Positions 1 through 17,869 of a stretch of DNA of 23,992 bases are shown here, one piece after another. Both the position numbers and the translations under genes were made by a program. The stretch is from a virus. The stretch spans positions 1-23,992 of IMG/VR virus record IMGVR_UViG_3300047552_000051. One strand, given 5' to 3'. Each line of letters begins with the position of its first letter. The first letter of the stretch is position 1. Below the pieces are notes generated by a model, which searched no databases, was not told the DNA's origin, and saw only the letters and a list, made by a program, of their open reading frames with translations.

Positions 1-365
1 CTTCTGACGCCAAAGCTGTGGACGCTGTTGCTAAGATCGCAGACCTGCAAGGTCAACTGGACGCTGCTGCTGCAAAAGCTACCGAGACTGACAAGACCCA
101 AGCTGCCCTGGAAGCTATTGTGGCTGGCAGTTTGAAAGCAATGTCTGTGGCTTTGAATGCCACTGCAGATGCTACACTCAAAGGTCAAGAACTTGTGGCT
201 GCTCATGCTGAGATGGCTGACAAGTTCAAATCCAAGTTCAAAGCGGGCGGTGTTGCCGCAGCCAAACCAGCAGTTACTGAAACTGAGAAAACCACTCAAG
301 CTTCTGCAACTGTTAACCCGCTGTTTATCGCTGCGGCAACCATGAAACAATCGAAAGGAAAGTAA
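1..365 (+). CDS. 3' end of a head maturation protease/scaffold-like protein (partial)
   Basis: The reading frame is open to the left edge of the window (first full codon at 3), so only the C-terminal ~120 residues are present; the GTG at 18 is not a credible start. What is visible is an alanine-, lysine- and glutamine-rich segment with a long helical, coiled-coil-like stretch, then a low-complexity A/T/P linker and a short tail ending in KQSKGK. It lies four bases upstream of the putative decoration gene and just before the major capsid gene. In HK97-like head modules this slot usually holds a scaffold protein or a prohead protease with a C-terminal scaffolding domain, and the composition fits. 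No catalytic residues are in view, so the protease part is inferred from position only. Confidence 0.55.
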   Translation, partial: SDAKAVDAVAKIADLQGQLDAAAAKATETDKTQAALEAIVAGSLKAMSVALNATADATLKGQELVAAHAEMADKFKSKFKAGGVAAAKPAVTETEKTTQASATVNPLFIAAATMKQSKGK

Positions 366-368
366 ATC

Positions 369-851
369 ATGCCTCGTGATCACTACATTGCTCCCACCCT
401 CACCGAACTGGCCAGCACCACTGTCCGTTTCGGTGCAGGTAACGCTGCCAACCAGCGTTTCTCGTACACTGAAGTGGGCAAAGCTGTTCGCCTTGTTGGC
501 GAGTCGCGTTACGACCTGTGCGCTGTCGGTACTGACATCGAAGGCTTTGTGACTGCCGTTGAGTTGGCTGTGCAGAACGGCTTCTCGATTGGCTCTGTTG
601 CCAACGCTCCCGGTACTCGTGTCAGTGTGACCTTTGACGGTCTGCAAGGTACTCCTGGTACTGGTGTTCTGGCTATTGGCGATATTGTCAACGCTGGCAC
701 CATCACCGCCAAGGACACTGCCTTGGCTCCCTACCCCAAAGTGTGCAAGGCTACCACCCCTGCCAACGTTGTGTTCAAGTGGCGTGTTGTGTCCCTGGGC
801 ACCGCTGGCACTGGCGCTGTTGGTACGACCGGTGTGATCGAACGCATCTAA
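369..851 (+). CDS. Putative capsid decoration/stabilising protein
   Basis: This 160-residue protein is rich in Gly, Ala, Thr and Val, with alternating patterns that suggest beta structure and no membrane segment. Starting at ATG 369, it has a good Shine-Dalgarno (AAAGGAAAG) just upstream. It sits between the scaffold/protease-like gene and the major capsid gene, where many siphophages encode a small beta-rich head decoration (cement) protein, for instance of the DUF2190 or lambda gpD type. Its codon choice resembles that of the capsid gene, as expected for a protein made in hundreds of copies. No diagnostic motif was recognised, so the role rests on position, size and composition. A head fibre protein is the main alternative. 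Confidence 0.6.
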   Translation: MPRDHYIAPTLTELASTTVRFGAGNAANQRFSYTEVGKAVRLVGESRYDLCAVGTDIEGFVTAVELAVQNGFSIGSVANAPGTRVSVTFDGLQGTPGTGVLAIGDIVNAGTITAKDTALAPYPKVCKATTPANVVFKWRVVSLGTAGTGAVGTTGVIERI

Positions 852-885
852 TCTGGTCTACAATATCCAACAGAAAGGAAACATC

Positions 886-2097
886 ATGCTCGTTTCGTAC
901 ATCAACAGCCAAGGCCAGTCGCAGCAAGTTACCTTGCAAGAAGGTGAACTGATGCAGGCCGTCAGGTCGGGTGACCCTGTTGCCCACTACAACCGCCAGT
1001 TCGCGGATGCCGACCCCCGCTTGGGCTCTGCGTTTGACCAGTTCAAGCTGTCTGCTGGTCTGGTCCGTGCTGACGTTGGCAACGCTATGGGTATCCGCAC
1101 TGCTACCATTGGCAGTGTCCTGGATGGCACCTCTGGCCTGAACGCTGTCAGCAACGTCCAGCAAAACACCACCCCGTTTGGTACTTCTTCGCGTGCTTTC
1201 ACTGCCATCGCCATGATTGATGAAGTCATGTCCGAAGTGCAGAAAGACCGTGAAACCGACTCCGTGGTGTTCAACGATCTGGTGGCTGTGAACCAAGCCA
1301 TCACCACTGAGCACTTCGAACAGCCTGTCATCGACATGACCGGTGCTGGTGGCCCTGAGTCTGCCAAGGCCCAGCGCGTTGCCCAAGGTGCCTTGCCTCC
1401 GAAAATCTTGTTCTTCAAGACCTCGGACCGCATTCGCCGGATCGGTGCCTGGACCATTGGTATGGAATGGTCTGACCAAGCCCTGCGCAACACCACCATC
1501 GACTACGTGTCGCGTACCACTGCTCACTACCTGCGTGTTGAGCAAGACGAGCGTGTCTACCGTTACCTGTCCAACTTGTTCAGCGGTGACAACGACTTTG
1601 TGGTTGGTGCTGTATCTGCTGTGACCTCCACTTCGCTGGACAGCGCTGCTACCGGTGGCGTGCTGACCCACAAAGCTTGGGTGAAGTTCCTGGCCCGTAA
1701 CCGCAAGTACCGCAAAATCACCCACGTGGTTTGCGACTTCGATACGTACCTGAAGATCGAAGGTCGCACCGGTCGCCCTGGTTCCAACAACTACGATCCT
1801 ACACTGGCTCGTATTGATCCCCAAGTGGCGTTCATGAACATTGGCTTCGGCAACGATGTCAAGTTCTTCCTGGTGGACTCCGCTGCAGAAGGTGGCCCTG
1901 TGCCTGCTAACACTGTGTGGGCTCTGGATGCATCTATTGCTGTAACCAAGATCACGAACACTGCTGCTTCGTACAATGCTGTCGAAGAGTTCGCGCTTCG
2001 CAGGGTGCAAGCAGTTCGCATGGACTGGGCAGAGGAAGTCTTCCGCACCCTGGGTGACTCCGAACTGCGTCCCTTCGACGTTCTGACCATCAGCTAA
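886..2097 (+). CDS. Major capsid protein (HK97-fold type)
   Basis: The 403-residue product has the size of an HK97-fold capsid protein and lies directly after the decoration gene. ATG 886 is preceded by a strong Shine-Dalgarno (AGAAAGGAAA). An N-terminal ~80 residues that look helical are followed by a mixed alpha/beta body; the region around FKTSDRIRRIGAW and the acidic repeat-free core around residues 210-330 are typical of this class. The C-terminus (FRTLGDSELRPFDVLTIS) resembles the final strands of capsid proteins that form capsomer contacts. Codon use is strongly biased, with very few TTA, CTA or TCA codons, and a strong terminator follows 13 bases after the stop. Both suit very high expression. 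No N-terminal delta domain is obvious; the scaffold function is probably supplied by the upstream gene. Confidence 0.85.
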   Translation: MLVSYINSQGQSQQVTLQEGELMQAVRSGDPVAHYNRQFADADPRLGSAFDQFKLSAGLVRADVGNAMGIRTATIGSVLDGTSGLNAVSNVQQNTTPFGTSSRAFTAIAMIDEVMSEVQKDRETDSVVFNDLVAVNQAITTEHFEQPVIDMTGAGGPESAKAQRVAQGALPPKILFFKTSDRIRRIGAWTIGMEWSDQALRNTTIDYVSRTTAHYLRVEQDERVYRYLSNLFSGDNDFVVGAVSAVTSTSLDSAATGGVLTHKAWVKFLARNRKYRKITHVVCDFDTYLKIEGRTGRPGSNNYDPTLARIDPQVAFMNIGFGNDVKFFLVDSAAEGGPVPANTVWALDASIAVTKITNTAASYNAVEEFALRRVQAVRMDWAEEVFRTLGDSELRPFDVLTIS

Positions 2098-2110
2098 TCA
2101 CTGACCCTGG

Positions 2111-2137
2111 AGCCTAGGTGGAAACACCTAGGCTTTT
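2111..2137 (+). terminator. Rho-independent terminator after the capsid gene
   Basis: A perfect 10-bp stem (AGCCTAGGTG at 2111-2120 with CACCTAGGCT at 2125-2134) closes on a GAAA tetraloop and runs into TTT. It starts 13 bases after the capsid stop. A GTG at 2118 lies inside the left arm, which argues against its use as a start. Confidence 0.85.
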
Positions 2138-2144
2138 CAACTCT

Positions 2145-2348
2145 ATGCAAATCCAGAAAATCTACGATAGCAACGGTAAGTGGTACGTCAACAAGGGCAG
2201 CTTTGACTTCGTTGACCCCACGACAGGCAACCGGTTTACCCCTGGGACTCCGACCCAGGCCCTGGAAACCGAGTGGATCAAGGGCCAGCCTGTGCTGGAA
2301 CCCCAGCAGGCCGAAAAACCTGCAAAGCCTACTAAGCAAGAATCCTGA
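2145..2348 (+). CDS. Small hypothetical protein between two terminators
   Basis: This 67-residue protein begins MQIQKIYDSNGKWYVNKG. The longer reading from GTG 2118 is rejected because that codon is buried in the capsid terminator stem. It is basic to neutral, with aromatic residues near the N-terminus and a Pro/Lys/Gln-rich C-terminal tail (QAEKPAKPTKQES) that looks disordered. No family was recognised. It is isolated by a terminator on each side, so it is probably expressed by read-through from the capsid transcript, at lower level. Small proteins in this position are commonly found between the capsid and connector genes, but their role is usually unknown. No clear Shine-Dalgarno precedes ATG 2145. 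Confidence 0.6.
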   Translation: MQIQKIYDSNGKWYVNKGSFDFVDPTTGNRFTPGTPTQALETEWIKGQPVLEPQQAEKPAKPTKQES

Positions 2349-2349
2349 C

Positions 2350-2374
2350 AAAAACCCCTCTCTGAGGGGTTTTT
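2350..2374 (+). terminator. Rho-independent terminator
   Basis: An 11-bp perfect stem (AAAAACCCCTC at 2350-2360 with GAGGGGTTTTT at 2364-2374) closes on a TCT loop. Its A-tract and U-tract flanks make it potentially functional on both strands. It begins two bases after the stop of the 67-residue gene. Confidence 0.9.
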
Positions 2375-2446
2375 CTTTACCTACACATCTACGAGGTTGT
2401 TAGGATTGTCAGGCCCACCACCTTGCTAAATCCTACAATATATGTC

Positions 2447-2941
2447 ATGGCGCTAAATGACTACACCACATCTGATGACGTTCGGGCTGCACTTGGCGTC
2501 TCTTCTGAAGAACTGGAAGAGGCTACACTAGGGCTCGAAACGATAGGTACCCAACTTGACATGAGCCTGGAAGAGCTGTCACCAGACTTGGCAGATAGCT
2601 ATGCTACAGTCCATGCTATTCAGCAACACCAGCGTACAGAAGCTCAACAGCGCTTTTACTTGTACACCAGAACTTACGCCACTTACGTAGTAGCCAACTT
2701 GCTGTTGAATACACTGGCAATGTTTTCGTTCAAGCGGCTGACAGACGGCAAGGCTGAAGCTGAGCGTACAGACGCCTGGGAAGACACCAAGAAAGATGTG
2801 CGAGACAACCTTGAGTTGCTTCGCCGTAGACTGCAGACTGCGTTCACGAACTTGAACACTGTCTATGTGGCTCCAGCACCCACACGAATGAACTTCATCG
2901 TGGCGTCTGGCCTGTTAACCAACCCGGTGACAGGCGAATGA
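2447..2941 (+). CDS. Putative head-tail adaptor (connector) protein
   Basis: Reading from ATG 2447 gives 164 residues, starting MALNDYTTSDDVRAALGVS. The product is mainly helical and acidic in its first half; the opening 'TTSDDVRAALGVSSEEL' resembles the short N-terminal helix pair of gp6/gp15-type adaptors that dock on the portal. A further in-frame TTG lies at 2423, but it would add residues unlike the rest. No Shine-Dalgarno is seen before ATG 2447. It is the first gene after the double terminator and heads a tight run of neck genes ending with the tail terminator. Its stop overlaps the next start (ATGA at 2938). The adaptor role is inferred from order and helical character, not from a diagnostic motif. 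Confidence 0.5.
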   Translation: MALNDYTTSDDVRAALGVSSEELEEATLGLETIGTQLDMSLEELSPDLADSYATVHAIQQHQRTEAQQRFYLYTRTYATYVVANLLLNTLAMFSFKRLTDGKAEAERTDAWEDTKKDVRDNLELLRRRLQTAFTNLNTVYVAPAPTRMNFIVASGLLTNPVTGE

Positions 2942-3783
2942 GACTCAAGAGCGCAGCCCGGTACTTTGACACGTGCCCAGTGTACGATGCCTACAGCGGC
3001 GCGTACCTGTTCAAGATGCAGACTTCCACATTCTTGGAAAGCGCTGTTGAGGGTTCGACTGCAGCCCGCCGTGTGGTGTCTCTTGATCCAGCTTTGACGC
3101 CTCCAACTCACTCTGCTATTCTAGCTGTCAACGTTTTGATGCTGTTGGGTGGTGAAACCATTGACGAGTGGGCAGGCGAAGCGATTAGAAAAGCCTATTG
3201 GGTTAAGACAGTCACAGACAATTTCTCTATGCTGACCCCCGGCCAAGCCGCACTTGGCAGTGCCGGTGCAGCCTGCTTCGGTCAAAAGAAGTTCTTGCGG
3301 GAAACCATTAACACTGCAACAGACTCGGAACTCGATCCGATGTGGCGGATTTTCCTGTCCAAGAGTCTGAACCCCGCACGTGGTACCATTCTCAAGTCTG
3401 CGACAACCCTCTACAGAGTGCGCATGGGTTTTGAAGACGTTGATGGCTTTCGAACAGTACAGTGTGACGAGCTTGACTCCCCAGTTGTGCGTGTCACGAT
3501 GACAGCTAACAGGGTTTACGATCCAGTCACAGACACCTACAAGCCTAGCACAGTCACATACCAAGCACTTGCCATTGACGCTTCAAAAGCTTATGCAGAC
3601 ATGTCAGAAGCTTCGGAAAAGGTGAAACCTGGGGACATTTCATTGGTTGTCAGCAAGTCCAGTGCAACCCCTGGAATGGGTACTGAATACAGTTTTGCCA
3701 CTGGCCGTTATCAAGGCCGCTGGTCTGTAGTAGACGTCATGTCTGAACTTGACAGTTGGCTGCTGCAGTTGCGGAGGTTGTGA
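2938..3783 (+). CDS. Unrecognised protein in head-closure/connector position
   Basis: This is a 281-residue protein with no family recognised. It starts at an ATGA overlap with the previous gene and ends in a TGATG overlap with the next, so it is translationally coupled on both sides. The N-terminal third is mixed, the middle has a helical stretch with several aromatic residues (around residues 75-110), and the C-terminal half looks beta-rich, with repeated T/V/Y patterns around residues 155-225. No membrane segment or catalytic motif is evident. Its position between the adaptor and the gp10-like gene is where head-closure (stopper) proteins lie, but those are usually near 100-150 residues. 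It is longer than expected and could combine a stopper with another domain. Confidence 0.45.
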   Translation: MRLKSAARYFDTCPVYDAYSGAYLFKMQTSTFLESAVEGSTAARRVVSLDPALTPPTHSAILAVNVLMLLGGETIDEWAGEAIRKAYWVKTVTDNFSMLTPGQAALGSAGAACFGQKKFLRETINTATDSELDPMWRIFLSKSLNPARGTILKSATTLYRVRMGFEDVDGFRTVQCDELDSPVVRVTMTANRVYDPVTDTYKPSTVTYQALAIDASKAYADMSEASEKVKPGDISLVVSKSSATPGMGTEYSFATGRYQGRWSVVDVMSELDSWLLQLRRL

Positions 3784-4298
3784 TGATCCGCTTTACTGGT
3801 CTTAACACCTACAAGAAGAAGACTGAGGCTCAGAAGGCTTTGATCAAGTCTAAGGCTACAGACCTTGTTCGCCGTCGCACACGTGAAGTCCTGCGGTTCC
3901 TTGTTTTGAACACTCCACAGTTTAGTGGTAACACTGCAGCATCTTGGCGTATTGATCTGAACTACATGCCTGCAAATAGGGAAGTGTCTGCACTGTTTGA
4001 TTTAACCATCTCGGAATACTTCGCAGAAGGTGAGTATCAGCTGCCAGAACAGGGGCTTCGTTTCAAAGGTGACGAAGGCGCCTGGAAAGAAGCCCTTAGA
4101 ATGAACGAAGCTCACTTCAAAGCCATACGCTGGAACGCCAACGTTAGTATCGTGAACGTCAGTTCTGTGGCTGACGGCCTTGAAAGTGGTGACATCGCTG
4201 AAGAAACACTGCGTCCAGGAAACTACATTCCAGGTGATGTAATGGCGATCAAGACTGCTGCGCTGAAGTTCAACCTGATGCCGAACTCTATTGGTTAA
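3783..4298 (+). CDS. HK97 gp10-like neck/tail completion protein
   Basis: The 171-residue product is read from ATG 3783, which has a GGAGG Shine-Dalgarno at 3773-3777 and overlaps the upstream stop as TGATG. The TTG at 3756 inside the upstream gene is not credible. The N-terminal region is very basic (KKKTEAQKALIKSKATDLVRRRTREV) and helical. It is followed by 'NTPQFSGNTAASWRIDLNY', matching the family pattern of small neck proteins related to HK97 gp10 and lambda gpZ, in which a 'TPvdTGnlraSW' motif precedes beta strands. Such proteins join the head connector to the tail tube. The neighbours (adaptor-like genes upstream and a tail terminator downstream) agree. Confidence 0.65.
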   Translation: MIRFTGLNTYKKKTEAQKALIKSKATDLVRRRTREVLRFLVLNTPQFSGNTAASWRIDLNYMPANREVSALFDLTISEYFAEGEYQLPEQGLRFKGDEGAWKEALRMNEAHFKAIRWNANVSIVNVSSVADGLESGDIAEETLRPGNYIPGDVMAIKTAALKFNLMPNSIG

Positions 4299-4301
4299 CC
4301 T

Positions 4302-4721
4302 ATGCAAGACTTAGACAACTTCCGTGCTGCGGTTAACACTGCTATTGAAGCTACACGGGCTACGTTTACAGACTACAGCTTGGCTGTGGACTACGAAAAC
4401 CGTCACATCGTAAATCCAGACGCACTTGATAATCCTTATCTATGCGTTGAGTTGAAGTTTGTAGACTCTGGACAACGTGACCTAAATCCCATACGTACTC
4501 AACGTGTACTTGGCTTTGTCATCTTGACTGTCAAGTGCAAAGTAGGTGCTGGCACATCTGGTGCGCTCAAACTATTGGAACACATGTACAAGCCACTGCA
4601 CTGCCGTAAGCTTGGTGCTGCCAACATGGAAATAGCTAAGCTTGTCCCAGGCCGCGAGGTCAAGGGCTTTTGGTGCCAGAGCATCATGATCCCATTCTGG
4701 CTGGACACCCAAGCGTTCTGA
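4302..4721 (+). CDS. Tail terminator protein (gpU/DUF4128-like)
   Basis: The 139-residue product has a helical N-terminus (DNFRAAVNTAIEAT) leading into beta strands that include 'PYLCVELKFVDSGQRDLNP' and 'RVLGFVILTVKCKVGAGTSGALKLLEHMY', and a C-terminal 'QSIMIPFWLDTQ' strand. That layout, helix then a small sheet with 'G.G...a..l.e.i...f', is the usual one for phage tail terminators of the gpU/DUF4128 type. These cap the tube when it reaches the length set by the tape measure. It is the last neck gene before the tube protein and is followed by a hairpin terminator. No other family fits as well. Confidence 0.65.
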   Translation: MQDLDNFRAAVNTAIEATRATFTDYSLAVDYENRHIVNPDALDNPYLCVELKFVDSGQRDLNPIRTQRVLGFVILTVKCKVGAGTSGALKLLEHMYKPLHCRKLGAANMEIAKLVPGREVKGFWCQSIMIPFWLDTQAF

Positions 4722-4743
4722 CATCCAGCCAAGACTCGTACAT

Positions 4744-4776
4744 GAAGCCTGCCATTTGAGCAGGCTTCGTTGTTTG
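4744..4776 (+). terminator. Hairpin terminator between tail terminator and tail tube genes
   Basis: GAAGCCTGC (4744-4752) pairs perfectly with GCAGGCTTC (4760-4768) around a seven-base loop, followed by GTTGTTTG. The stem is strong but the U-tract is interrupted, so termination may be partial. Confidence 0.7.
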
Positions 4777-4844
4777 TGCTGTAGCAAGTCCAGGGAGAAG
4801 CGACGACACTACAGGCTGCAAACACGTTCCATTTGGAGTTCACC

Positions 4845-6065
4845 ATGCCTAACGCATCATCCAGCCTTGTCCAGATAGCCTACGCTCAAGAGGCTACCTT
4901 CGGCGTCATCCCCACCTCAGGTAACCACAAGTACCTGCGTGTGACCGGCGAAACCTTGAACTACGAAATCAGCAAAGAAGCCTCTGCTGAAATCAACAGC
5001 ACCCGCGCTGTGTCCAGCATGATCCCCATCAGTGCTTCGGCAACTGGTGGTATCGAGACTGAGATTTCGTACAACGAATACGATCCACTGTTTGAAGCTG
5101 CACTGCAGTCGAGCTACACAGTGTACGGCACTGCGGGTGTTGGTGCAACTTTCACTGCAACTTTCACTGCTACCACTATTACCGCTTCGGTTGCACCCAC
5201 AGGTGGTAGTGCTTTCACAAACCTGAAAAAGGGTCAATTCTTCCGTTTGGTAGCTCCTGGGCATGCCAACGATGGCAAGATTTTCCGTGTCAGCCTGACT
5301 ACGCCGACCAACGGTACGGTTATCACTGTGGAAGCTTCCACACCCCTGACTACTGGTACGTCGATTGCCAACTGCTTGGTTCAGTCTTCGCGTCTGACCA
5401 ACGGCACCACCCAGCGCAGCTACACCATTGAGCGTCAATCTCCTGACATCACTGAGTTCTGGGCTTACTCTGGTATGACCCTGAGTTCGATGACCATGAA
5501 CGTGGCATCCGGTGCACGCTCCACGATGTCGTTTGACTTCATGGGCAAGAAGGCCACTCGCAAGACTGGTACTACCAACATGCCCGGTACTGCTACCGAC
5601 TCGCTGGCTTACGACATCCACTCCAGTGGTACTGGTCCTGCCTGCTACATCTGGGTTGACGGTGCACCTCTTGCAGGTACTTACGTCAAGTCGTTGAGCA
5701 TGACTTACGACAACGCTCTGCGTACCCAAGAAGCTGTGTGTGAGATTGGTGCTATTGGTATCGGTTCCGGTACGATCAACTGCACTGGTAGCTTGGAAGT
5801 GTACTTCGCCAACGGTACGCTGTACGACAAGTTTGCCAGCAACACCAACATTGCTTTCACGTTCTCCACGCTTGACAACGCCGGTAACGGTTATGTTGTG
5901 ACCCTGCCCAAGGTCAACATCTCCAGTCTGGGTGTGAACGCATCCGGTAAGGACCAAGACTTGATGCTGAGTCTGGAGTTCACTGCCTTGCGTGACCTGG
6001 GTAACGCTGACGCTACCCTGCGTCAGGTGGCTTTCATCGACCGGGTTGGTGCCGCTGTGGTGTAA
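4845..6065 (+). CDS. Major tail (tube) protein
   Basis: ATG 4845 gives 406 residues and has a TTGGAG ribosome binding site at 4833-4838; the TTG at 4833 overlaps this site and is not the start. The opening (SLVQIAYAQEATFGVIPTSG...LRVTGETLNYE) and the following 'INSTRAVSSMIPISASATGGIETEISYNEYD' resemble the Phage_tube_2-type tail tube family, in which a conserved N-terminal strand-loop-strand leads into a two-domain beta barrel. The remainder is Thr/Ser/Gly-rich beta structure, including a GATFTATFTATTIT stretch. Size is on the long side for a tube protein and may include an extra surface domain in the middle (roughly residues 80-190). It sits alone between two terminators and uses highly biased codons, both expected for an abundant product. 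Confidence 0.8.
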   Translation: MPNASSSLVQIAYAQEATFGVIPTSGNHKYLRVTGETLNYEISKEASAEINSTRAVSSMIPISASATGGIETEISYNEYDPLFEAALQSSYTVYGTAGVGATFTATFTATTITASVAPTGGSAFTNLKKGQFFRLVAPGHANDGKIFRVSLTTPTNGTVITVEASTPLTTGTSIANCLVQSSRLTNGTTQRSYTIERQSPDITEFWAYSGMTLSSMTMNVASGARSTMSFDFMGKKATRKTGTTNMPGTATDSLAYDIHSSGTGPACYIWVDGAPLAGTYVKSLSMTYDNALRTQEAVCEIGAIGIGSGTINCTGSLEVYFANGTLYDKFASNTNIAFTFSTLDNAGNGYVVTLPKVNISSLGVNASGKDQDLMLSLEFTALRDLGNADATLRQVAFIDRVGAAVV

Positions 6066-6100
6066 TGGTTGGGTTGCTGAGTTGGGAAACTTAGCAGTTA

Positions 6101-6132
6101 GCCAGGGAAGGTAACACTTCCCTGGCTTTTTT
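6101..6132 (+). terminator. Rho-independent terminator after the tail tube gene
   Basis: A perfect 10-bp stem (GCCAGGGAAG at 6101-6110 with CTTCCCTGGC at 6117-6126), GTAACA loop and six Ts (6127-6132). It starts 36 bases after the tube gene stop. Confidence 0.92.
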
Positions 6133-6186
6133 CTGCGTGTTAGAATCCACACCGCAGGCTTTCTGCAGCAACCCAAGGAACACAAA

Positions 6187-6588
6187 ATGGATATTTTTGA
6201 CGCTTTTGCTTCTGACGAAAAACTGGAAATTGAAGGTCGCTGGGTCGACTATGCCCCCGGCATCCGTTTCAAGATCGCACGTGCCAGCAACAAGCATTTC
6301 AGTCGCCTGTTTACCCGTGAGTACGCCAAGAACCGTATGGTCTTGGAAGCCAAGGGCGAAGCTGCAGAAGCCAAGTCTGATGAGCTGATGGCCAAGGTGT
6401 TTGCCAAGACCATCCTTGTGGACTGGGAAGGCCCCATCAAGTTCCAGAAGAAAGACTACAGCGTCTACAGCGTGGAGAAAGCAGAAGAGATGCTGCGTGT
6501 GAAAGACTTCCGGCGTTGGGTTGCTTCTCAGTCTGAAGACTTCGATGCGTACAAAGCTGTCCAAGAGGCAGAAGACGCAAAAAACTAA
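6187..6588 (+). CDS. Tail assembly chaperone, short form (gpG-like)
   Basis: The 133-residue short product is helical and charged, with a strand-rich N-terminus (LEIEGRWVDYAPGIRFKIARAS) typical of lambda gpG-like chaperones. These bind the tape measure and tube protein during tail assembly. ATG 6187 has an AAGGAA ribosome binding site at 6175-6180. Its last sense codons are GCA AAA AAC before TAA, so the canonical -1 slippery heptamer A AAA AAC lies exactly in register just before the stop. The adjacent -1 frame is open to 6956. Position between the tube protein and the tape measure is the classic place for this frameshifted pair. A frameshifted long form of 256 residues is predicted. Confidence 0.85.
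   Translation: MDIFDAFASDEKLEIEGRWVDYAPGIRFKIARASNKHFSRLFTREYAKNRMVLEAKGEAAEAKSDELMAKVFAKTILVDWEGPIKFQKKDYSVYSVEKAEEMLRVKDFRRWVASQSEDFDAYKAVQEAEDAKN
6579..6585 (+). promoter_or_regulatory. -1 programmed ribosomal frameshift site
   Basis: The heptamer A AAA AAC is positioned in the 0 frame as X XXY YYZ, directly followed by TAA at 6586-6588. An AAGAGG sequence at 6563-6568 ends ten bases upstream, similar to the Shine-Dalgarno-like stimulator of E. coli dnaX. No obvious strong stem-loop or pseudoknot was found just downstream by eye. Confidence 0.85.
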
Positions 6589-6956
6589 CTGACTTCTTTG
6601 AGTGGTGGCTAGAGTACGCAGACAAGATTGAGGCGATGGAACATGTGGCTGAGGCTACAGGCATCATCCCTCAAGGTCTGCGGAATAGGCCGCAGGACTT
6701 AGGTCCACACCTACAGTTTTATCTCGGGCTTTACAGAGAGGTAGAACGTGATAGGTTGTTTACAGGCAGTGGGGTACCCCTACCACTTCGCTTTGCAGAC
6801 TTCGTAACGTTTGCACAGTTCCACGAGTTCACCCGAGAAGACACCAACCGTTGTTGGAAGTTCGTAAGGGTTGTCGATGACGCTTGGCTACGAGATTACA
6901 AAAAACGTCAGCAAGCGCACGACGAAAAGCTGAAGGCCAGGGCCAAGAGCCGTTGA
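6585..6956 (+). CDS. Tail assembly chaperone, frameshift extension (gpT-like part)
   Basis: This segment has no start of its own worth using: the frame is open from the slippery site, beginning L-T-D-F-F-E-W-W after the slip, well upstream of the ATG at 6636. Joining 6187-6585 to 6585-6956 gives a 256-residue G-T fusion. The extension contains 'FFEWWLEYADKIEAMEHVAE', a compact helical domain, a conserved-looking 'HLQFYLGLYREVERDR' helix, and a basic C-terminus (KKRQQAHDEKLKARAKSR). In lambda-like phages the T domain binds the tube protein while the G domain binds the tape measure, and the long form is made at a few per cent of the short form. The next gene is the tape measure, as expected. 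Confidence 0.8.
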   Translation, partial: LTDFFEWWLEYADKIEAMEHVAEATGIIPQGLRNRPQDLGPHLQFYLGLYREVERDRLFTGSGVPLPLRFADFVTFAQFHEFTREDTNRCWKFVRVVDDAWLRDYKKRQQAHDEKLKARAKSR

Positions 6957-6959
6957 GTT

Positions 6960-7015
6960 CTACAGTTTTGGCAGGCTTGTTGGTCTGCTGAAACTGTAGA
7001 ATCGGCGTAGCCGAT
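6960..7015 (+). promoter_or_regulatory. Tandem hairpins in the leader of the tape measure gene
   Basis: Two adjacent inverted repeats fill the 74-base gap before the tape measure. The first is a 15-bp stem with two wobble pairs (CTACAGTTTTGGCAG at 6960-6974 with CTGCTGAAACTGTAG at 6985-6999) and a ten-base loop. The second is a perfect 6-bp stem (ATCGGC at 7001-7006 with GCCGAT at 7010-7015) on a GTA loop. Neither is followed by a U-tract, so they look like RNA stability, processing or translation-control elements rather than a standard terminator. The tape measure ribosome binding site (AAGGA, 7020-7024) lies five bases after the second hairpin. Confidence 0.65.
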
Positions 7016-7030
7016 CTGCAAGGAACTCAC

Positions 7031-8515
7031 ATGACTCAAGATGATGGACTCAGTTTACCGACAGGACGCTTGAAGCGTGATGTCCGTGAGGCCACTTCGT
7101 CCCTTGACGAGTTGATGCAGGCGTTTGTTAAGCTTGAAAGCGGTCTTAAAACTCTTCGGCGCTCTGAAGCGACTGAGCTTGAAGGTGTGCTGAAGCAGAT
7201 CAAGAAGTTTGAGTTAGGAGCTTTTGCTAGCATTCAGAAAGATGCGCTGACAAAGATTCAAGCTGGCAACATCAAGCTACTAGACGTTGAAAGAGAGATG
7301 AGCAGAGCGCTGCAGCAGCTATATGAAGCTCGCTACTCCATGCGTGGCAAGTTCAGCGACCAAGAACTCGCACAGCTGAAAGAGTCTAAAGTTAAACTTG
7401 TGGAAGAGCATAGAGCGCAGCTAAAAGACTATGAAGCAGTCCTTAAACAGGAAGCTGCACTGGCTAAGCAGCAGGTAGACGCACGCAATGCGACTGCCAA
7501 AAGCCTTGTAGCTTCGCTGCAACCTGCCGGTCAGACCAGCAAGTTGAGTGATCGTACACTGCAACAACCTAACGGCAAGGGTGGGAGTGAGTCTGTGGCC
7601 CTCGCAGGTTTAAAGGCTGACGAGGCTATTGCAAAGCAACGTGAAAAGATCGACATCGACGCTGAACTTGCAGCCCAAAAGATTCGTGAAGACAACTTCA
7701 AAGACTACGAAGCCCGTCAACAATCGCTAAAGAAGACTGCTGATGCTGTAATGCTGCAACAGCAGCAGGAAACGCATCAGCAAGTTGAGGCAATGTGGCG
7801 CGAACACGAGAACACGCTAAGAGCCATTAAGGCAGCTGACAAGAAGCAGCTGGGTGCAGCGGTTGCAAATGAGATTGCGCAGTACAACGAACAACTAGAC
7901 CAGAGGCTTGCAGCAGCTAAACAAAATCGTGCAAACCTCACTGCTGAAGCTAAGCAGCAGGTTGCTGATGACCTGAAGGTTGCTGGTCAGCGTGAGGACA
8001 CACTGCAGCGCCTTGAGAAACAATCCGCTGCAGCTAGACTCAGCAACCACAAAGCTTACGAAGATCGTAAAAACGAGATTTCAAAAACAGCTGCAGCTGT
8101 TTATAAGCAGATCGAGTCGGATAAGGCTTCTCAGCTTGAGGCCATGTGGAAAAGCCACGAGTCTCAGCTGAAGCAGATTAAAAAGGATGAGAATGCTGCG
8201 CTTGGCAGGGCAGTGGCCAGCGAACTCGCGCAATTTAACGAACAACTGGACCAGCGACTTGCTGCGGTAAAACGCTACAAAGCTAATGAGATGGCGGTGC
8301 TGCAGCAGAGTGTAGCGGTAGCCACCAACCAAACCGCAGCTGCTTACAGCAAGTTTGGCGGCGGCTCCACAGGTAAGCTTGTCGAAACTAAGTCCTTTTA
8401 CCGTCCTGAAGTTGGTGGTGATACTATCGGTGGCGAGTACGCCAAGTACGACGCTGTTGCCGTCAAAGCTGCAAAAGACAAAGCAGATGCTACTGCTGTT
8501 GCTACTAACGCCTAG
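7031..8515 (+). CDS. Tape measure protein, N-terminal part (frame-split)
   Basis: This 494-residue frame is almost entirely charged helix and predicted coiled coil, rich in Ala, Lys, Glu and Gln, as in the N-terminal half of tape measure proteins. ATG 7031 has an AAGGA site six bases upstream. Residues 223-339 and 340 onward form a collinear internal repeat of 117 residues, anchored by 'QLDQRLAA' and 'EAMW' in each copy. It ends at TAG 8513-8515, with no domain boundary visible. The adjacent -1 frame continues at once with sequence that reads as tape measure (see the next entry), so I take this as the first part of one protein of about 1,668 residues and not as a separate gene. Whether the break is a programmed shift, a natural mutation or a sequence error cannot be told from this sequence. 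Confidence 0.75.
   Translation: MTQDDGLSLPTGRLKRDVREATSSLDELMQAFVKLESGLKTLRRSEATELEGVLKQIKKFELGAFASIQKDALTKIQAGNIKLLDVEREMSRALQQLYEARYSMRGKFSDQELAQLKESKVKLVEEHRAQLKDYEAVLKQEAALAKQQVDARNATAKSLVASLQPAGQTSKLSDRTLQQPNGKGGSESVALAGLKADEAIAKQREKIDIDAELAAQKIREDNFKDYEARQQSLKKTADAVMLQQQQETHQQVEAMWREHENTLRAIKAADKKQLGAAVANEIAQYNEQLDQRLAAAKQNRANLTAEAKQQVADDLKVAGQREDTLQRLEKQSAAARLSNHKAYEDRKNEISKTAAAVYKQIESDKASQLEAMWKSHESQLKQIKKDENAALGRAVASELAQFNEQLDQRLAAVKRYKANEMAVLQQSVAVATNQTAAAYSKFGGGSTGKLVETKSFYRPEVGGDTIGGEYAKYDAVAVKAAKDKADATAVATNA
7697..8317 (+). repeat. Degenerate 351-bp tandem repeat in the tape measure gene
   Basis: Copy 1 is 7697-8047 (residues 223-339) and copy 2 starts at 8048 (residue 340) and is recognisable to about 8317. 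The two align without gaps over about 90 residues; shared blocks include K-x-Y-E-x-R near the start, EAMW, H-E, AVA-x-E-x-AQ and NEQLDQRLAA. The last ~27 residues of copy 1 have no clear counterpart in copy 2. Confidence 0.8.
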
Positions 8516-11500
8516 AGTCTAAGAACCTGGCACCCGAACTCGATAAGGGTTCGAAGGCGCTGCGTAACCTTGCTTTCTCTGGTAACGACGCCCACTCGGC
8601 TGCACGAGGCTTGGCTTCTGGCTTTGGCTTGTTGTGGTTGACCTGGGGTAACATGCTGCCCCTGCTGGCAACTGCTGCCCTGTCTAACAGCTTCCGTGAG
8701 GTTGTGCAGACTGGTCGAGTTGTGGAGCAGCAACTGGCGATCATTGGCGCTTTGGGTGGTGCTACTGGTGAGCAGGTTGACGGTCTGCGCAACAGGATCA
8801 CGGAGCTTGCCCGCAGTGGTCCTGTCGGTGTCACAGAAATCGCAGAAGCGATGAAAGTGCTGTCACTGGCCGGTATGCAGGCTAATGAAATCTTAGGCGC
8901 TACTCAGGTTGTTCTTGACTTCAGCGTTGCAGGTACAACTGACCTGAAGACTGCTGCTGAGACTTTGATGTCTGTGTCCACAGCTTTCAATATGGGCAGT
9001 GGTGGTTTCCGTGAAGTGTCTGACGTTATATCTAAGGCTGCTGCTGAATCCATGACAAGCGTGGAGAACTTCTCCAGCGCCATGAAGACAGCCTCTGTGA
9101 TCAATGCGCAGTATGGTGTCAGCCTTAAAGACACAGCAGTCAACATTGCTGCACTGTCTCAGTTGGGTATTCAAGCAAGTGCAGCTGGTACAGCCGTTCG
9201 CAACATGTACGCAGACCTGTCTGGTCGGTCTACACAGGTTGCTAAGGTGCTGAAGCAGCAAGGCATTGAGCTTAGAGACAACAACGGCAAGTTCCGCGAT
9301 CTTGTGACGATTGTTGGTGAACTCGACGATAAGTTTAGCAAGCTGACTGGTAAGGGCAAGGCTAACCTTATGCAGGCCCTCTTATCTGAGAGGGGTGCTA
9401 AGCCAATTGTTGAGCTTTTGCGCATGGTTCAAACAGAAGCTACTGTGACAGGTAAGAGCTTCTCTAACGCACTCGAAGAGATGCGGGGCAAGCTTGACAA
9501 CATTGGTGGCTTCTCTGCTGAAGCAGCTGCACGACTTAATCAGACTGCAGACAACCAACTGAAGTCTGTGACTTCTAGCTTCTCAGCCACGATGCTGGAT
9601 GCTTACAAGTCCATTGAGCCCAGTCTGATTGTCATTGCTACAAACTTAAAAGCACTGTTTGCTGATGACACGTTTAAGGCTTTTTTAAGCGGTATGGCTA
9701 ACTTCATGGCCACACTTGGTCGTGTCGTGTCTGAGAACATTGGAGCATTTACGTTACTTGCTGGTGTCTACGCTGCTTCCAAGGTTGCGGGTTGGGCCTT
9801 GGCTTTTGTGACTGATAAACTCTCAGTCGAGAAGAAGAAGTTGCTGACCTTGACCCTTGAGAATGGTGCGGCCATGACGATCGAAGCTACTGCTGAGAAC
9901 CGTTCACTGGCTTCTAAGTACGCTCTGATACGTGCTGAACAGGCGCTGAACAAGGAAAAGCAGGCTGGAACACTCATTACGCAGGGTAATGCTGCCAAGA
10001 CCACAGCTACTGGGCTTGCAGGTGCTGCTGTGGGGGTCGCCGGTGTTGCTGGTGCTGCGGTGGCTGGTGCGGGTATCGTAGATGCAGCAGGTAACGTAAT
10101 CCGTTCACAGAAGGGAATTGCAGACGCTACTGACGCAGCTACTAGAGCAACTGTAGACAATGGCAAAGAAACTGCCAAAGACATGAGCACCAAGATGAAG
10201 TGGATTGGTTGGCTCGGTCGTGCTGCCGGTGCCCTGAACTACGTAGGTATGGCTATCACACTGGGTACAGTTGGGTACAGCCTATACGAGATGTGGCAAA
10301 ACAAGTCTGCTGACGCTGCCTCTCGTGCTGCCAGCATTACAGAGAACAACGTTGCTACTGCGATGAACAAAGAAGCTGATATGCTAGAGCGTATCAACTC
10401 TTTGATGGCAACAGGCTTGTCTCTGCGAGATGCTACAGCCAGAGCGTCGGTTATGGGCACTGCACCTAGTGAACTTGATGCAGCCAAGACTAAGCTAGAG
10501 AGCTTGAAAGAGCAGAAAAAGCTCTACGACAAGACATATGGTTCTCAAATTTCAGCTGCGTCTTCTGGTACAGAAGTTAGCAGAGTTGCGTCTAACGGTG
10601 CAGCACTCGACAGAGAGATTACAGCTACAACTGCACAAGTAGCTAAACTTGAACGCCCAGTTACAGAAGCAACTAACAGACTCAAGCTAGCTAACGCTGA
10701 ACGTGAAAAGCTTATAAAGGCTGAGGAAGACCGTCGTAAAAAAGCGATAACTGGCACAGGCATGTTTGAACTCGGTCAAGGTGCCAACGGTGGCGGTCTA
10801 CGCCAACAGGGCGCCAACGCCTTCGACTCTCTGATTAAGGGCTTCAACGAAGCCTCTCGCAGCGCCATTGCAGCAGCCAAGGATCAACAGGCTTTGATGG
10901 ATGGCTTCCCTGCAACTCTTCCTTATCTCAAAGCGTTCGAAAACGATCTTGAAAAGATTGACGAACAGTTTGAGATGGCCAAGAAGAACATGAAGCCTGA
11001 CGCTGAAGGCTACGCCCAAGCAGTCAAGCAGCTTGAGCTTGGTCGTCTGATGGCTCGTGCAGCTGCAGAGCAAAAGAAGAATGACGCAGAGTACGCTTAC
11101 GGAGTAGCAGAGACGAAGAAAGCACTTGAAGAGTATGCAGTTGCTGTCGCTAAAGTCGTAGAGCTTAAACGTGCAGATGCTAGAGCAGCATGGGAAGCTA
11201 CACGGGCGTATGAAGCAGAACGTGCTGAGAAAGAACGTAGCTTCAAAGTTATGGAAGACGATGCTAAGGCTAAGGATGCTCAGCGGGGTATGACGCCTGC
11301 TGACGCTGCTGCCTATGCTGCGCAGTACGAGATACAGAAAAAGTACGCAGGAGAACGCTTCAAAATTGAACAGGAATTACAAAAAGACCTTGAAGGTCTA
11401 GTAGACCAAGATGGTATTGAAGACTACCAAGCAGCTAATCGCAAGATTTTGCAGGCTAACAAGAAACTTGCGGACTTGGAAAAAGACCGTGCAAAAGAAA

Positions 11501-12036
11501 CTTCAATTGCCACAGCACAAGTTTACAAAGAAGAATGGCAAAAGACCACTGACAGCATTGCGTCTGACCTGACCAACCGCCTCATGGAAGGTACACTCGA
11601 TGCAGGTGACTTCCTGAAAGACACCTTCAAGAACCTTGTGCTTCGTCCCCAGATGGAGCTGGCAATGAAGGGTCTGATGGACGGCGTGTTCGGTGGTATG
11701 GGTGGCGGCTCCAGCGGCGGTGGTGGCATCTTTGGTTTCCTTGGCAGTCTGTTCAGCTTCGACGGTGGCGGTTACACCGGTGACGGCTCTCGCTCTGGCG
11801 GTCTGGACGGCAAGGGCGGCTTCCTGGCTATGCTGCACCCCCAAGAAACCGTGACCGACCACACAAAAGGTCAGGCTGTGGAAAGCTCAAGTGCCCCTGT
11901 TACTGTTATCATCAACAACACTGTGGGTGACGTTGCAACCAAATCCATGCTTGACCAATACCAACAATCGACTGTGAAGCAGGTTCAGGCTGGTCTGATG
12001 CGGTCTTCGCGTTACGGCGGGGCTGCAAGTGCCTGA
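8512..12036 (+). CDS. Tape measure protein, main part (lambda gpH-like)
   Basis: Read in the -1 frame from 8512, this adds 1,174 residues. The first 50 residues include 'NDAHSAARGLASGFGLLWLT', a block I associate with gpH-like tape measures, and it begins before the first possible start (TTG 8611, no usable ribosome binding site; next ATG 8653). Residues ~100-300 read as the PhageMin_Tail/TP901 core (GPVGVTEIAEAMKVLSLAG, TLMSVSTAFNMG, ALLSERGAKPI). Hydrophobic Gly/Ala stretches at roughly 413-435, 501-523 and 568-595 could insert in a membrane during DNA entry. Helical coils follow, and the C-terminus (FDGGGYTGDGSRSGGLDGKG, FLAMLHPQETVTDHTKG) is the lambda-family gpH tail end. The stop overlaps the next GTG. 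At about 1.5 angstrom per residue the full protein suggests a tail near 250 nm. Confidence 0.85.
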   Translation, partial: LESKNLAPELDKGSKALRNLAFSGNDAHSAARGLASGFGLLWLTWGNMLPLLATAALSNSFREVVQTGRVVEQQLAIIGALGGATGEQVDGLRNRITELARSGPVGVTEIAEAMKVLSLAGMQANEILGATQVVLDFSVAGTTDLKTAAETLMSVSTAFNMGSGGFREVSDVISKAAAESMTSVENFSSAMKTASVINAQYGVSLKDTAVNIAALSQLGIQASAAGTAVRNMYADLSGRSTQVAKVLKQQGIELRDNNGKFRDLVTIVGELDDKFSKLTGKGKANLMQALLSERGAKPIVELLRMVQTEATVTGKSFSNALEEMRGKLDNIGGFSAEAAARLNQTADNQLKSVTSSFSATMLDAYKSIEPSLIVIATNLKALFADDTFKAFLSGMANFMATLGRVVSENIGAFTLLAGVYAASKVAGWALAFVTDKLSVEKKKLLTLTLENGAAMTIEATAENRSLASKYALIRAEQALNKEKQAGTLITQGNAAKTTATGLAGAAVGVAGVAGAAVAGAGIVDAAGNVIRSQKGIADATDAATRATVDNGKETAKDMSTKMKWIGWLGRAAGALNYVGMAITLGTVGYSLYEMWQNKSADAASRAASITENNVATAMNKEADMLERINSLMATGLSLRDATARASVMGTAPSELDAAKTKLESLKEQKKLYDKTYGSQISAASSGTEVSRVASNGAALDREITATTAQVAKLERPVTEATNRLKLANAEREKLIKAEEDRRKKAITGTGMFELGQGANGGGLRQQGANAFDSLIKGFNEASRSAIAAAKDQQALMDGFPATLPYLKAFENDLEKIDEQFEMAKKNMKPDAEGYAQAVKQLELGRLMARAAAEQKKNDAEYAYGVAETKKALEEYAVAVAKVVELKRADARAAWEATRAYEAERAEKERSFKVMEDDAKAKDAQRGMTPADAAAYAAQYEIQKKYAGERFKIEQELQKDLEGLVDQDGIEDYQAANRKILQANKKLADLEKDRAKETSIATAQVYKEEWQKTTDSIASDLTNRLMEGTLDAGDFLKDTFKNLVLRPQMELAMKGLMDGVFGGMGGGSSGGGGIFGFLGSLFSFDGGGYTGDGSRSGGLDGKGGFLAMLHPQETVTDHTKGQAVESSSAPVTVIINNTVGDVATKSMLDQYQQSTVKQVQAGLMRSSRYGGAASA

Positions 12037-12625
12037 CTTTAACTGGCCCTCTGCACATTGGCCTGTTGCGTTTTCGCTACGGGTCAATCCTGATGTCCGC
12101 CGTGCCAGCTCCGGCTACGGCGGTAACACCCGTATCACGGACAAGCTTGACGACAGCTGGCAGGCGTCTATGACCTTGGACACGCGCAGCAACCCTGTTG
12201 CAGTTGCACGTGTAGAAGCTACTGTGTCAAAGTTAAATCTTGGTTACGTAGCTGTATTTGGTCACATAGCTAGACAGGCCTTGCAGGGCACAATGGCAGG
12301 TTCGCCAACATTAAGTGTGTCAGCTCTTAAAGGTGCTGAAAATATTGTAGTGCAGACAACAGCAGGGGCAACTGTTAAAGCTGGAGATATGCTTGGAGTA
12401 TCAGGACTGCTGTTACAGGTATCAGCTGATGCTACAGCCAACGGTAGTGGCGTACTCACTGTACCGCTTGTCAACAGGTTGCGTAAAGCCTTGACCAGTG
12501 GTGCGGCTATTGTGTACGCTTACCCTACGACACGCTGGTTACTGACTTCTGAAGCAGGCGTTTCACTGTCTAACGATGGCAGTGAGACTGTTACGCTTAA
12601 CTTTGAGGAACTCATAAGTGGCTAA
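12029..12625 (+). CDS. Distal tail / tail-tip protein, paralogue 1
   Basis: GTG 12029 overlaps the tape measure stop by eight bases, and GGCGGGG lies a few bases upstream as a weak ribosome binding site; no ATG is available nearby. The 198-residue product begins PDFNWPSAHWPVAFSLRVNP and has a Gly/Val/Thr-rich beta body with 'GDMLGVSGLLLQVSADATA'. It is a paralogue of the next gene along its whole length: both share WP...P..F.LR, SS/YG..T, D.W.A..T.D, GD....GLLLQV, L.VT/P...R.RKA and a final LNFEELI/LAEDLL. Immediately downstream of the tape measure is where distal tail proteins (lambda gpM/gpL position) that nucleate the tail tip are encoded. No family assignment beyond that is claimed. Confidence 0.55.
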   Translation: MPDFNWPSAHWPVAFSLRVNPDVRRASSGYGGNTRITDKLDDSWQASMTLDTRSNPVAVARVEATVSKLNLGYVAVFGHIARQALQGTMAGSPTLSVSALKGAENIVVQTTAGATVKAGDMLGVSGLLLQVSADATANGSGVLTVPLVNRLRKALTSGAAIVYAYPTTRWLLTSEAGVSLSNDGSETVTLNFEELISG

Positions 12626-13211
12626 CTATACATGGCCTACAGTGTGCTACCCGTCAAGGTTTCAGTTGCGACCCGCCAACTTGCGCCTGCAAGGCAGCTC
12701 TATGTACGGTCGTAGTACACAGACACTGGATTTAATGAACGACCGCTGGATTGCAGAAGCCACCATAGACCCTAAGATAGGTGCAGATGCTGCCACCACA
12801 GAAGCTTTTATTAACAGTCTTCGTGGTGGTGCTAACACAGTTAACGTGATGCACTTTCAAAGGCTGCGACCAAATGGTACGCAGTTCAGCTCTACTACGT
12901 TGCAAACTGCTACTAACCAGGGAGCTAACAGTTTTGTACTTGTCAGCACTACCGGCTTAACGCTTTTAGAAGGTGACCTGTTTACCCTTGACGGTCTTCT
13001 TCTTCAAGTCGCCGAAGACTGCACAGCAGTCTCGAACCTGCTTACGGTCACTACTTTGAACAGAGCACGCAGAGCCTGTGCTGCAGGTTCTGTAGCTGTG
13101 TTTAATCAGCCTACAATACGTATGCGTTTAGTAGACTTGCCTACACTGTCTTACCAAGCTGGTGGTGTCCTGAGCGCTACTAGTCTTATGCTTGCTGAGG
13201 ACTTGCTATGA
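12618..13211 (+). CDS. Distal tail / tail-tip protein, paralogue 2
   Basis: GTG 12618 is preceded by GAGGA at 12605-12609 and overlaps the previous stop by eight bases, the same arrangement as its paralogue. The 197-residue product begins ANYTWPTVCYPSRFQLRPAN and parallels gene 12029-12625 from end to end at low identity, so the pair is an old tandem duplication. The second half has the same 'GDLFTLDGLLLQVAEDCTA' and 'LLTVTTLNRARRACAAGS' elements, which look like a small beta barrel with a ligand or partner loop. In lambda the corresponding slot holds gpM and gpL, two different proteins; here two related ones may form a mixed ring at the tail tip. The next start overlaps as ATGA. Confidence 0.55.
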   Translation: MANYTWPTVCYPSRFQLRPANLRLQGSSMYGRSTQTLDLMNDRWIAEATIDPKIGADAATTEAFINSLRGGANTVNVMHFQRLRPNGTQFSSTTLQTATNQGANSFVLVSTTGLTLLEGDLFTLDGLLLQVAEDCTAVSNLLTVTTLNRARRACAAGSVAVFNQPTIRMRLVDLPTLSYQAGGVLSATSLMLAEDLL

Positions 13212-13783
13212 TTATTCTTACTCCTGGGGCACAGACAGCAATTGCACAAGAGAATGTACCTATTGTGCAGCTTGTGTACTTTCAGTTCAGCACAACACCA
13301 CTAGCGCTTAACTCAAGCAATTGGGACTTGACCTACGGCGGTGTGCTTTATCGAGGTGCCTACGGCATGGGCAGAATTTCAGAGATTGATGACAGTCCTG
13401 GGGAGATTAAGGGCCTGCAGTTTACGCTCAGCGGTGACAGCGCAGACATGGTGGCACTTGCCTTAGACGATGCTGCCATTTGGCAGGGTACACCTATAAC
13501 GATTCGAACGGCCATCCTGGACCCAGCGACTTACCAAATTCTTGACGCACCAGTTGCCTGGAGTGGTAAGGGCGATACAATGAGCATAGAGGCGCAGCCT
13601 GGGTCTACTGTCATACAGGCAACAGCAGAAAGTAGTGCTGTAGACCTGCTAAAGGGGCATGTGCTACACTACAGTAATGTGGATCAGCAGATGTTGTATC
13701 CAGGTGACAACGGCTTTGGTTATGTTGTATCGCAGGTTGACAAGCCCATTGTATGGCCTTCTAAAGAGTTCTTCTACCAATGA
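13208..13783 (+). CDS. DUF2163-like tail hub protein
   Basis: This 191-residue protein starts at an ATGA overlap with GAGG at 13197-13200. The opening 'VPIVQLVYFQFSTTPLALNSSNWDLTYGGVLYRG' followed by 'ISEIDDSPGEIKGLQFTLSGDSADMVALALDDA...GTPITIRTAILD' is the pattern of DUF2163/BR0599-type proteins, which form part of the baseplate hub in siphophages and gene transfer agents (GTA gp13-like). The first half is a beta barrel and the second carries the 'AWSGKGDTMSIEAQPGSTVIQATAESS' strands. The C-terminal Cys-containing BR0599 domain seems to be absent, so this is the N-terminal hub domain only. It lies between the distal tail pair and the DUF6950 protein, in the usual order. Confidence 0.65.
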   Translation: MIILTPGAQTAIAQENVPIVQLVYFQFSTTPLALNSSNWDLTYGGVLYRGAYGMGRISEIDDSPGEIKGLQFTLSGDSADMVALALDDAAIWQGTPITIRTAILDPATYQILDAPVAWSGKGDTMSIEAQPGSTVIQATAESSAVDLLKGHVLHYSNVDQQMLYPGDNGFGYVVSQVDKPIVWPSKEFFYQ

Positions 13784-14181
13784 ATCGCAAACTTGACTGG
13801 CAGGCTTCATTCGCTGCACTTGTTGCAGGTCGTACAGCTACTCCGTTTGCGTGGGGTACTCATGACTGCTGCGTGTGGGCTGCAGATGCAGTGAAGGCTG
13901 TAACAGGTGTGGACTTTGCTGAGAACTTCCGAGGCACATACACGGATGAAGAGTCTGCGGCTGTTGTGCTGGCTCAGTTTGAGGAAGTAGATCAACTGGC
14001 TACGGCTTATCTTGGAGAGCCTACAACAGTTAGCTTTGCTACTGTAGGTGATATCATACTTTTTGACTTCAATAATGGTTACACACTTGGTGTGTGCAAC
14101 GGCAGAAATAGTCTTGTCGCTGGTGAAACTGGCCTTCGGGCTGTACCCACTCGTATGGGTTTAAAAGCTTGGAAGGTTTGA
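13780..14181 (+). CDS. DUF6950-like (NlpC/P60-related) tail-tip protein
   Basis: The 133-residue product begins with 'MNRKLDWQASFAALVAGRTATPFAWGTHDCC', where W-G-x-H-D-C (Cys30) matches the catalytic-cysteine region of the NlpC/P60-like DUF6950 family. 'AADAVKAVTGVDFAENFRGTY' and the later 'VGDIILFDFNNGYTLGVCNG' fit the same family. The usual catalytic histidine after the GD turn is not obvious (the segment reads NNGYTLGV), so hydrolytic activity is uncertain and a structural role is possible. In lambda-like phages the corresponding gpK is an NlpC/P60 cell wall hydrolase of the tail tip, immediately upstream of the J-type protein, as here. It overlaps the upstream gene by ATGA and ends one base before the J-like start. 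Confidence 0.7.
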   Translation: MNRKLDWQASFAALVAGRTATPFAWGTHDCCVWAADAVKAVTGVDFAENFRGTYTDEESAAVVLAQFEEVDQLATAYLGEPTTVSFATVGDIILFDFNNGYTLGVCNGRNSLVAGETGLRAVPTRMGLKAWKV

Positions 14182-14182
14182 G

Positions 14183-17100
14183 ATGCCACAGGTTTTCACT
14201 GTCGTAGGTTGGGCGCTAGCTGGTGCAGGAGCCACAAGTTCGTTAGCCATCTCTATTGGCTATTTTTTGATCGGTGCTGCCCCAGTGTTAGGAGGGGCGC
14301 TGCTACTGCTTGGCGGTATGGCAATGTCCAAGCGTGCTAAGAAGAAAGCACGCGCAGCTTATAACGCTCAGCAAGTAGACCGCCTTGTTAATGTACCTAC
14401 GACGACTGGACCTAGAGAGCTTGCGCTAGGGCGTGTACGTAAGGGTGGTGTTATTGTTTTCAGAGACTCTACAGGCTCTAACAGGTCTACATTTTACTCT
14501 GTGATAGCTTTGGCGGCTCATGAGATAGACGCAGTTGAGCATATCTACTTTGACGACAAAAAAGTAAGTCTCGATGCTAATGGTTACGTCACTACAGCAC
14601 CGTGGGCTGTTTCCAGCACTATCTCTGCTAGTGGTACTTCACCTCCAAGTCCAGGTACCTACATACCAGGAACCCTTGTAGACTACTCTTGGTCTGACGA
14701 GTCTACTGGTTACTCTTCATACTCGTGGCAGTACACAAGCACTACGAACTACGCAAGGGTTAGAACTGTCAAAGGCACTGCGACACAGACAGCTGACGCT
14801 ATTCTCATGTCTGCTTTTCCAGGCGTGTGGACCAGTGCGCATCGCTTGCAGGGCGTTGCTTATCTTGTCTGCCAGTTTGAGTACAGCGAATCTGCGTTTC
14901 CGTCTGGCTTACCTAATATAACAGCACAGCTCAGAGGTGCTAAGGTTTACGATCCTCGTTCAGCAACAACGGTATGGACACAGAATCCTGCGCTGCATGT
15001 TCGCCACCTGCTCCTGCACCCTTACTTCGGTAAGCGGACAAGTCTGACTGCTGAAGAGGACGAACGTATCATTGAAGCAGCCAACGCCTGTGACGTTCTT
15101 TACAACGATGGCACGACTAACAGTGCTATCTACAAGAGTAACACTGTCATACCGTTTGGCACAGAAGTCAGTGATGCACTGGACGACTTGACACAGGCCA
15201 TGTGCGGCATGTGGGCTTACGCTGGCGGACAGTTCTACCTAAAAGCAGGTGTGTACACAGCTCCAGAACTTGCTCTGGAGTCTAAACACATCCTGTCAAG
15301 CGTCAACTCTACTGCAGGTGGGTCACAGACTTTCCCAGTGGCTATTAGTGTTCATAAACCTACAGTAGACAAGATAAACGTTATTATTCCTAAGATATGG
15401 GATGAAAACCAGGACTACAAAGAAGTTGCGCTTCCTGCTGTAAAGAATACTGGAGCAATTGCATCTGACGGTAAAGAGATACCTCAGGAGATAACTCTAG
15501 CTGCAGTAGGTAATGCAAGTCGAGCTAACATAGTTAGTCAGTTCATCATGAAGGATGCTCGTGACCCTATGGTAGTTACAGCTACTTTTAAGATGGCAGC
15601 GTATCCTGTTGAGATGTTGGACAACATCACACTGACGATGCCAGAGTTTGGGTTTGCAGCCAAACCCTTCATGGTGCTTGGTAAATCATACTCTATCGAA
15701 GGCGGTGTAAAACTGACTTTAAAAGAGACTAACCCAGCTATCTACGATCCAGGCGTCTACGCTAATACCGACGGTTATGCTACTAATACAAATCTTGTTG
15801 AACCTTGGGACATAGCACCACCTACTATTACAGCTGTTGAGTCTGGGACTGCACATCTACAGTACGGACAAGACGGTACGGTTATCACACGTGTGCTAGT
15901 GAGCTGGGCACCGATTACAGACGGCAGAATTACAGAAGGTGGTACTATTGACGTACAGTGGAAACACTTACCAGACGCGACATGGAACACTGTAGTTGCG
16001 CAAGGTAATGAAACTTCAACTTACCTCACAGGTTGTACAGACGGTGTGACTATAGTTGTAAAGCTTCGTAGTAGAACTACACTAGCAGTTTCAGACTGGA
16101 GCCTGCAGCATGGACATTCAGTAGTTGGTAAGCTTGCGAATCCAAGCAACGTAACTTCTGCTGCTACGACGCTGGAGCGTAGGGAGCTTAGACTTACCTG
16201 GACTCCAATAAGTGACATTGACGTTGCAGGCTACGAAGTTCGAAACACAGATGGCAACTGGGGTGCTACAGTTCCTGCGCCTATCTTCAGTGGTAACGGG
16301 CTTGCTTGGCTAGTGAACCCTACAACAGGTCCTTGGTACGTTCGAGCGTATGACACCACTGGTCACTACAGCACAGCAAGTGCCACTGCTAGTTTCACAG
16401 CTGCAGCCATACCACAGCCCACAGGCTTTACTTCTACATTTTCAGATACAAGCCTGACTTCCGCTGTGGTCACTCTTTCCTGGACAGACGTAGACCCTCA
16501 GTTTGGGCTTGACTCTTACGAGTTGACCTGGAACGGCACTACCAGAACCATCAAAGCAAACAGTGTAGACCTGCCTGCTGACTGGGTTGGTGTACGTAAT
16601 TACACTATTCGCACAGTAGACCGCTATGGTGCAAAGTCTGCAGATTTAGTCCTGCCAGTTACAAGACTTGTTCCCAACCCTCTAAACGCAAGCCTAATTC
16701 TTCCTCAAGTCATTGACAATAACGTTCTGTTCCGCTGGACACTGCCTGCGAAGACAAGTCTCCCTATCTCGCACATTGTGATTAAGAAGGGTGACGTGTA
16801 CGCTACTGCGTCTACTATTGGAGCTAAAGACGGTGAGTTTACCGTACTTCAAGAACTCAACGGCGGTACTTACACTTACTGGTTTGTTGTTGTTGACACT
16901 GAAGGTGAAGAGTCTACTCCAGTTTCTAAGACTGTAACAGTAAGTCAACCGCCTGACTACGTGTTTAACGACGAAGAGTTCTCGACGCTTAGTGGTACCA
17001 GAAGCAATGCTTTGTTGGAGGCAGGTTACGTTGTGATGCCTGTCAACTTGACTGAGACTGGAGCGCAACACCACACCACAAATACGACACCACAGGCACA

Positions 17101-17860: not shown

Positions 17861-17869
17861 GGACTTGCA

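Follow-up and report, generated by a model that had tools for sequence, protein, structure and literature searches.

The locus analysed here raises the question of how a phage tape measure gene that runs in two reading frames, overlapping by a few bases, should be read: as two genes, as one gene whose frames are joined by recoding, or as one gene whose frame has been broken. The window, i.e., the whole stretch of 23,992 bases that was analysed, carries in order a capsid gene, head-completion genes, the major tail protein, a chaperone pair, the tape measure, distal tail genes, the tail tip and lysis-type genes. The tape measure was named by profile search, and the other names are those that we presume from synteny and general knowledge. 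No end repeats were found in the 23,992 bases, and apart from the tape measure no gene in the window appears broken. The coordinates of the features discussed are collected in Table 1.

Table 1. Features of the window that bear on the tape measure join.
Feature	Position	Strand	Details
Window	1..23,992		IMG/VR virus record, 23,992 bases; siphovirus structural region
Tail assembly chaperone, gpG-like	6187..6588	+	Ends at A_AAA_AAC TAA; outside the tape measure break
gpT-like extension	6582..6956	+	Programmed -1 frameshift from 6579-6585; ORF list has ATG 6636
ORF A, N-terminal part of the tape measure gene	7031..8515	+	494 aa; AAGGAA Shine-Dalgarno and ATG
Rest of the tape measure gene, -1 frame	8509..12036	+	1,175 codons; profile and homology
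Seven bases confining the probable net -1 lesion	8509..8515	+	Direct reading; codon-usage switch

Reading frames at the join

ORF A is open from 7031 to 8512 and then reaches a TAG at 8513–8515, which it meets owing to the break in the frame. The -1 frame has a TAA at 8506–8508 and is open from 8509 up to the stop at 12034–12036, so that the seven bases 8509–8515 are the only ones that both open frames share. In this second frame the block N-D-A-H-S-A-A-R-G-L-A-S-G-F-G begins at position 8584; the earliest TTG and ATG are those at 8611 and 8653, respectively, and no GTG precedes them. The original prediction had placed the TAG, the TAA, the opening of the second frame, the block and both start codons at exactly these positions. 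Codon usage, scored in each frame with the rest of the window's genes as the reference, was strong in the frame of ORF A until about 8495 and strong in the second frame from about 8540, with an abrupt switch at about 8510–8530. This pattern, together with the identity to relatives found upstream of the first start codon (see below), exceeds what chance would produce. The 1,175 codons past the break contain no further stop and have coding-type usage where scored. Because the other genes of the window appear whole as well, the lesion is either recent or not real.

The ORF A product is of coiled-coil type with internal repeats and by itself matched nothing in Pfam or PHROG. At the DNA level a diverged repeat links 7859–7922 and 8210–8273 (64 nt, 72%, spacing 351) within this coiled-coil part. 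At the join itself we found no RNA element, tRNA or intron.

One tape measure gene

The second frame matched the Pfam family PF10145 (PhageMin_Tail, E 8e-37) and the tail length tape measure family phrog_9696 of PHROG (E 1.4e-41). A scan of IMG/VR with the family alignment gave 23 tape measure contigs, and in all of them the gene is one continuous frame across the join. Upstream of the GFGLLWLTW block, or its variant, the 23 relatives have 216–704 open residues vs. 37 in the window, whose copy departs from their single frame in being broken at 8509–8515. Judged by homology, the gene is a member of the tape measure family, in a copy that is broken as assembled. It lies between the chaperone pair and the distal tail genes, in synteny with the nearest relative, L002.

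L002 is IMG/VR contig 3300048017_000061 (L002/L020/L043) and is syntenic with the window from the capsid gene through the tail-tip gene. Gene order around the tape measure is alike in both, and the conserved block and the first ~160 aa are homologous, but the relative has an uninterrupted ORF of 1,414 codons, counted between stops, where the window copy is broken. Over 163 aa, ORF A is 30% identical to the N-terminus of this intact tape measure, with E about 1e-6; the second frame is 46% identical to the same L002 ORF over 418 aa. Since a single ORF of L002 matches both halves and all 23 relatives are continuous, the two parts are best read as one tape measure gene of about 1,668 codons with a net -1 lesion, as had been proposed from the sequence. 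The C-terminal ~50 residues of ORF A had no sequence match in the relatives, and the left side of the join is for this reason bridged by gene layout and frame rather than by a residue-level alignment.

On the right side the evidence comes closer to the break. Recognisable tape measure sequence in the second frame begins at about 8539–8557, ahead of any ATG, GTG or TTG, and the residues encoded by about 8539–8610, before the possible starts, are 48–71% identical to an in-frame stretch of the relatives' tape measures. This match makes a separate downstream start unlikely. Such a start would be needed if ORF A were a gene of its own ending at 8515 and re-initiation within the second frame produced a shorter tape measure, an arrangement to which the adjacency of the stop and the downstream frame, and the fact that some phages split genes, lend a little plausibility. 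However, no Shine-Dalgarno start precedes the conserved block, the relatives are all fused, and the fused N-terminal part of L002 is homologous to ORF A. We regard two genes as very improbable; the homology upstream of any start codon led us to reject a split gene whose second part has its own start.

Origin of the break

It is very likely that this tape measure gene has been interrupted by a small net -1 indel within 8509–8515, either an error or a recent mutation. We infer that the break probably arose in the making of the metagenome contig, by a sequencing or assembly error, with a loss-of-function mutation that occurred recently in the sampled genome as the less likely origin; both weights are our judgement rather than computed values. 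The gene of the living phage would then be read as one uninterrupted frame giving one tape measure protein, and the tail tube polymerises around this protein.

There is a direct precedent for such a break within the family. The tape measure of L037 (IMG/VR 3300022743_000048) is likewise frame-broken in the contig, by one missing base near 6335–6390 of L037, whereas L026 and L027, 99.98% identical to it over more than 4.2 kb, have the gene intact. The case is one among 23 related contigs, a small sample, and differs from ours in having its break at another place in the gene and in having intact twins. For the window no near-identical contig was found in IMG/VR when the queries were the two protein halves, an exact 24-mer taken near the join and the C-terminal part, and the prokaryote genome collection had no near-identical copy either, so that no intact version of this particular gene was found.

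A real frameshift in the sampled phage or prophage, with the sequence correct and the gene inactive in this copy, is a possibility to be taken seriously, though an unlikely one. Indel errors are commonest in long homopolymers and the break lies outside any such run, which speaks for mutation, and the break could be present in a subpopulation or in a defective prophage. On the other hand, the tape measure is essential for siphovirus tails and a null would prevent tail formation, so that none is expected in the consensus sequence of a phage that replicates; a natural mutation fixed in such a phage is therefore less likely than an error. Neither a second lesion nor decay is visible. Two further ways of building a false join were considered. 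A chimeric assembly of two phages was rejected, L002 being syntenic and similar on both sides of the join, and so was misassembly driven by repeats, none of which lies across it.

Recoding at the join and the tail chaperone site

The third reading keeps the sequence as correct and joins the two tape measure frames by programmed recoding, either through a -1 shift or through a short hop. The narrow overlap of the open frames, only seven bases, and the coding constraint on both would fit it, as would the fact that this phage already uses -1 frameshifting in its tail chaperone. The chaperone provides a control. Upstream of the tape measure, at 6579–6588, lies a canonical -1 slippery site, A_AAA_AAC TAA, followed by a stable structure (z = -2.4); the gpG-like chaperone is 55% identical to that of L002, whose site is likewise A_AAA_AAC TAA (15803). 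This is the real programmed -1 site of the phage, of the G/GT type known for the tail chaperone of lambda (Xu, Hendrix and Duda, 2004, as cited in PMC5009743). Both the lambda arrangement and the tape measure join are -1 joins of two frames beside a stop in the tail operon, but the latter lacks a slippery heptamer, notable structure and conservation. As the original prediction had also noted, it has no canonical heptamer: there is no in-frame X_XXY_YYZ within 60 nt of the stop. By base-pairing reasoning, a tRNA-Ala on GCC is unable to re-pair on CGC; moving back by one base at GCC before the TAG would create two mismatches. Folding downstream is ordinary (z -0.34 and -0.57, vs. -2.4 at the chaperone site), and among the 23 relatives there is none with a frame change or a site at the join. 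Hopping or slippage at ACT AAC GCC TAG was also discarded, no matching take-off and landing codons being found nearby.

There is, in short, no positive evidence for recoding at the tape measure join, and with the one-base deletion of L037 as a precedent we consider programmed recoding highly improbable. Even less credence goes to the idea that this phage lineage alone joins the frames by an unrecognised mechanism at a non-slippery stop, which would give a full-length and a truncated product. In a limited full-text literature search no tape measure gene with an internal programmed frameshift was found, and frameshifts predicted in genes labelled as tape measures may belong to mislabelled chaperone genes (PMC10885494). 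Among the three causes originally offered for the break, assembly error and mutation fit the evidence, while unusual recoding does not, for lack of a slippery site, of more than ordinary folding and of any relative broken at the join. If recoding were real here, an essential virion gene would show a frame change of a new kind. On the ordinary reading, a normal tape measure gene is present in a copy whose frame is broken, and it is best handled as a single gene carrying a suspected indel at 8509–8515. When a large phage gene in a metagenome contig shows a frame break, comparison with relatives should be the first check.

Neighboring genes and similarity to named phages

The region 12029–13211, just downstream of the tape measure, holds two paralogues side by side, minor tail genes of 198 and 197 aa. 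L002/L043 likewise has two minor tail genes at that place, and the matches to the pair in the window run crosswise. The Variovorax phage VarioGold has the same gene order around the tape measure as the window. The sole piece of the window with DNA-level similarity to named phages lies in the 3' part of the tape measure, at 11750–11875, where Variovorax VarioGold, Paracoccus Pkon1 and cyanophage S-2L match at 74–80%. This similarity suggests that the C-terminal segment of the tape measure may have been conserved or exchanged.
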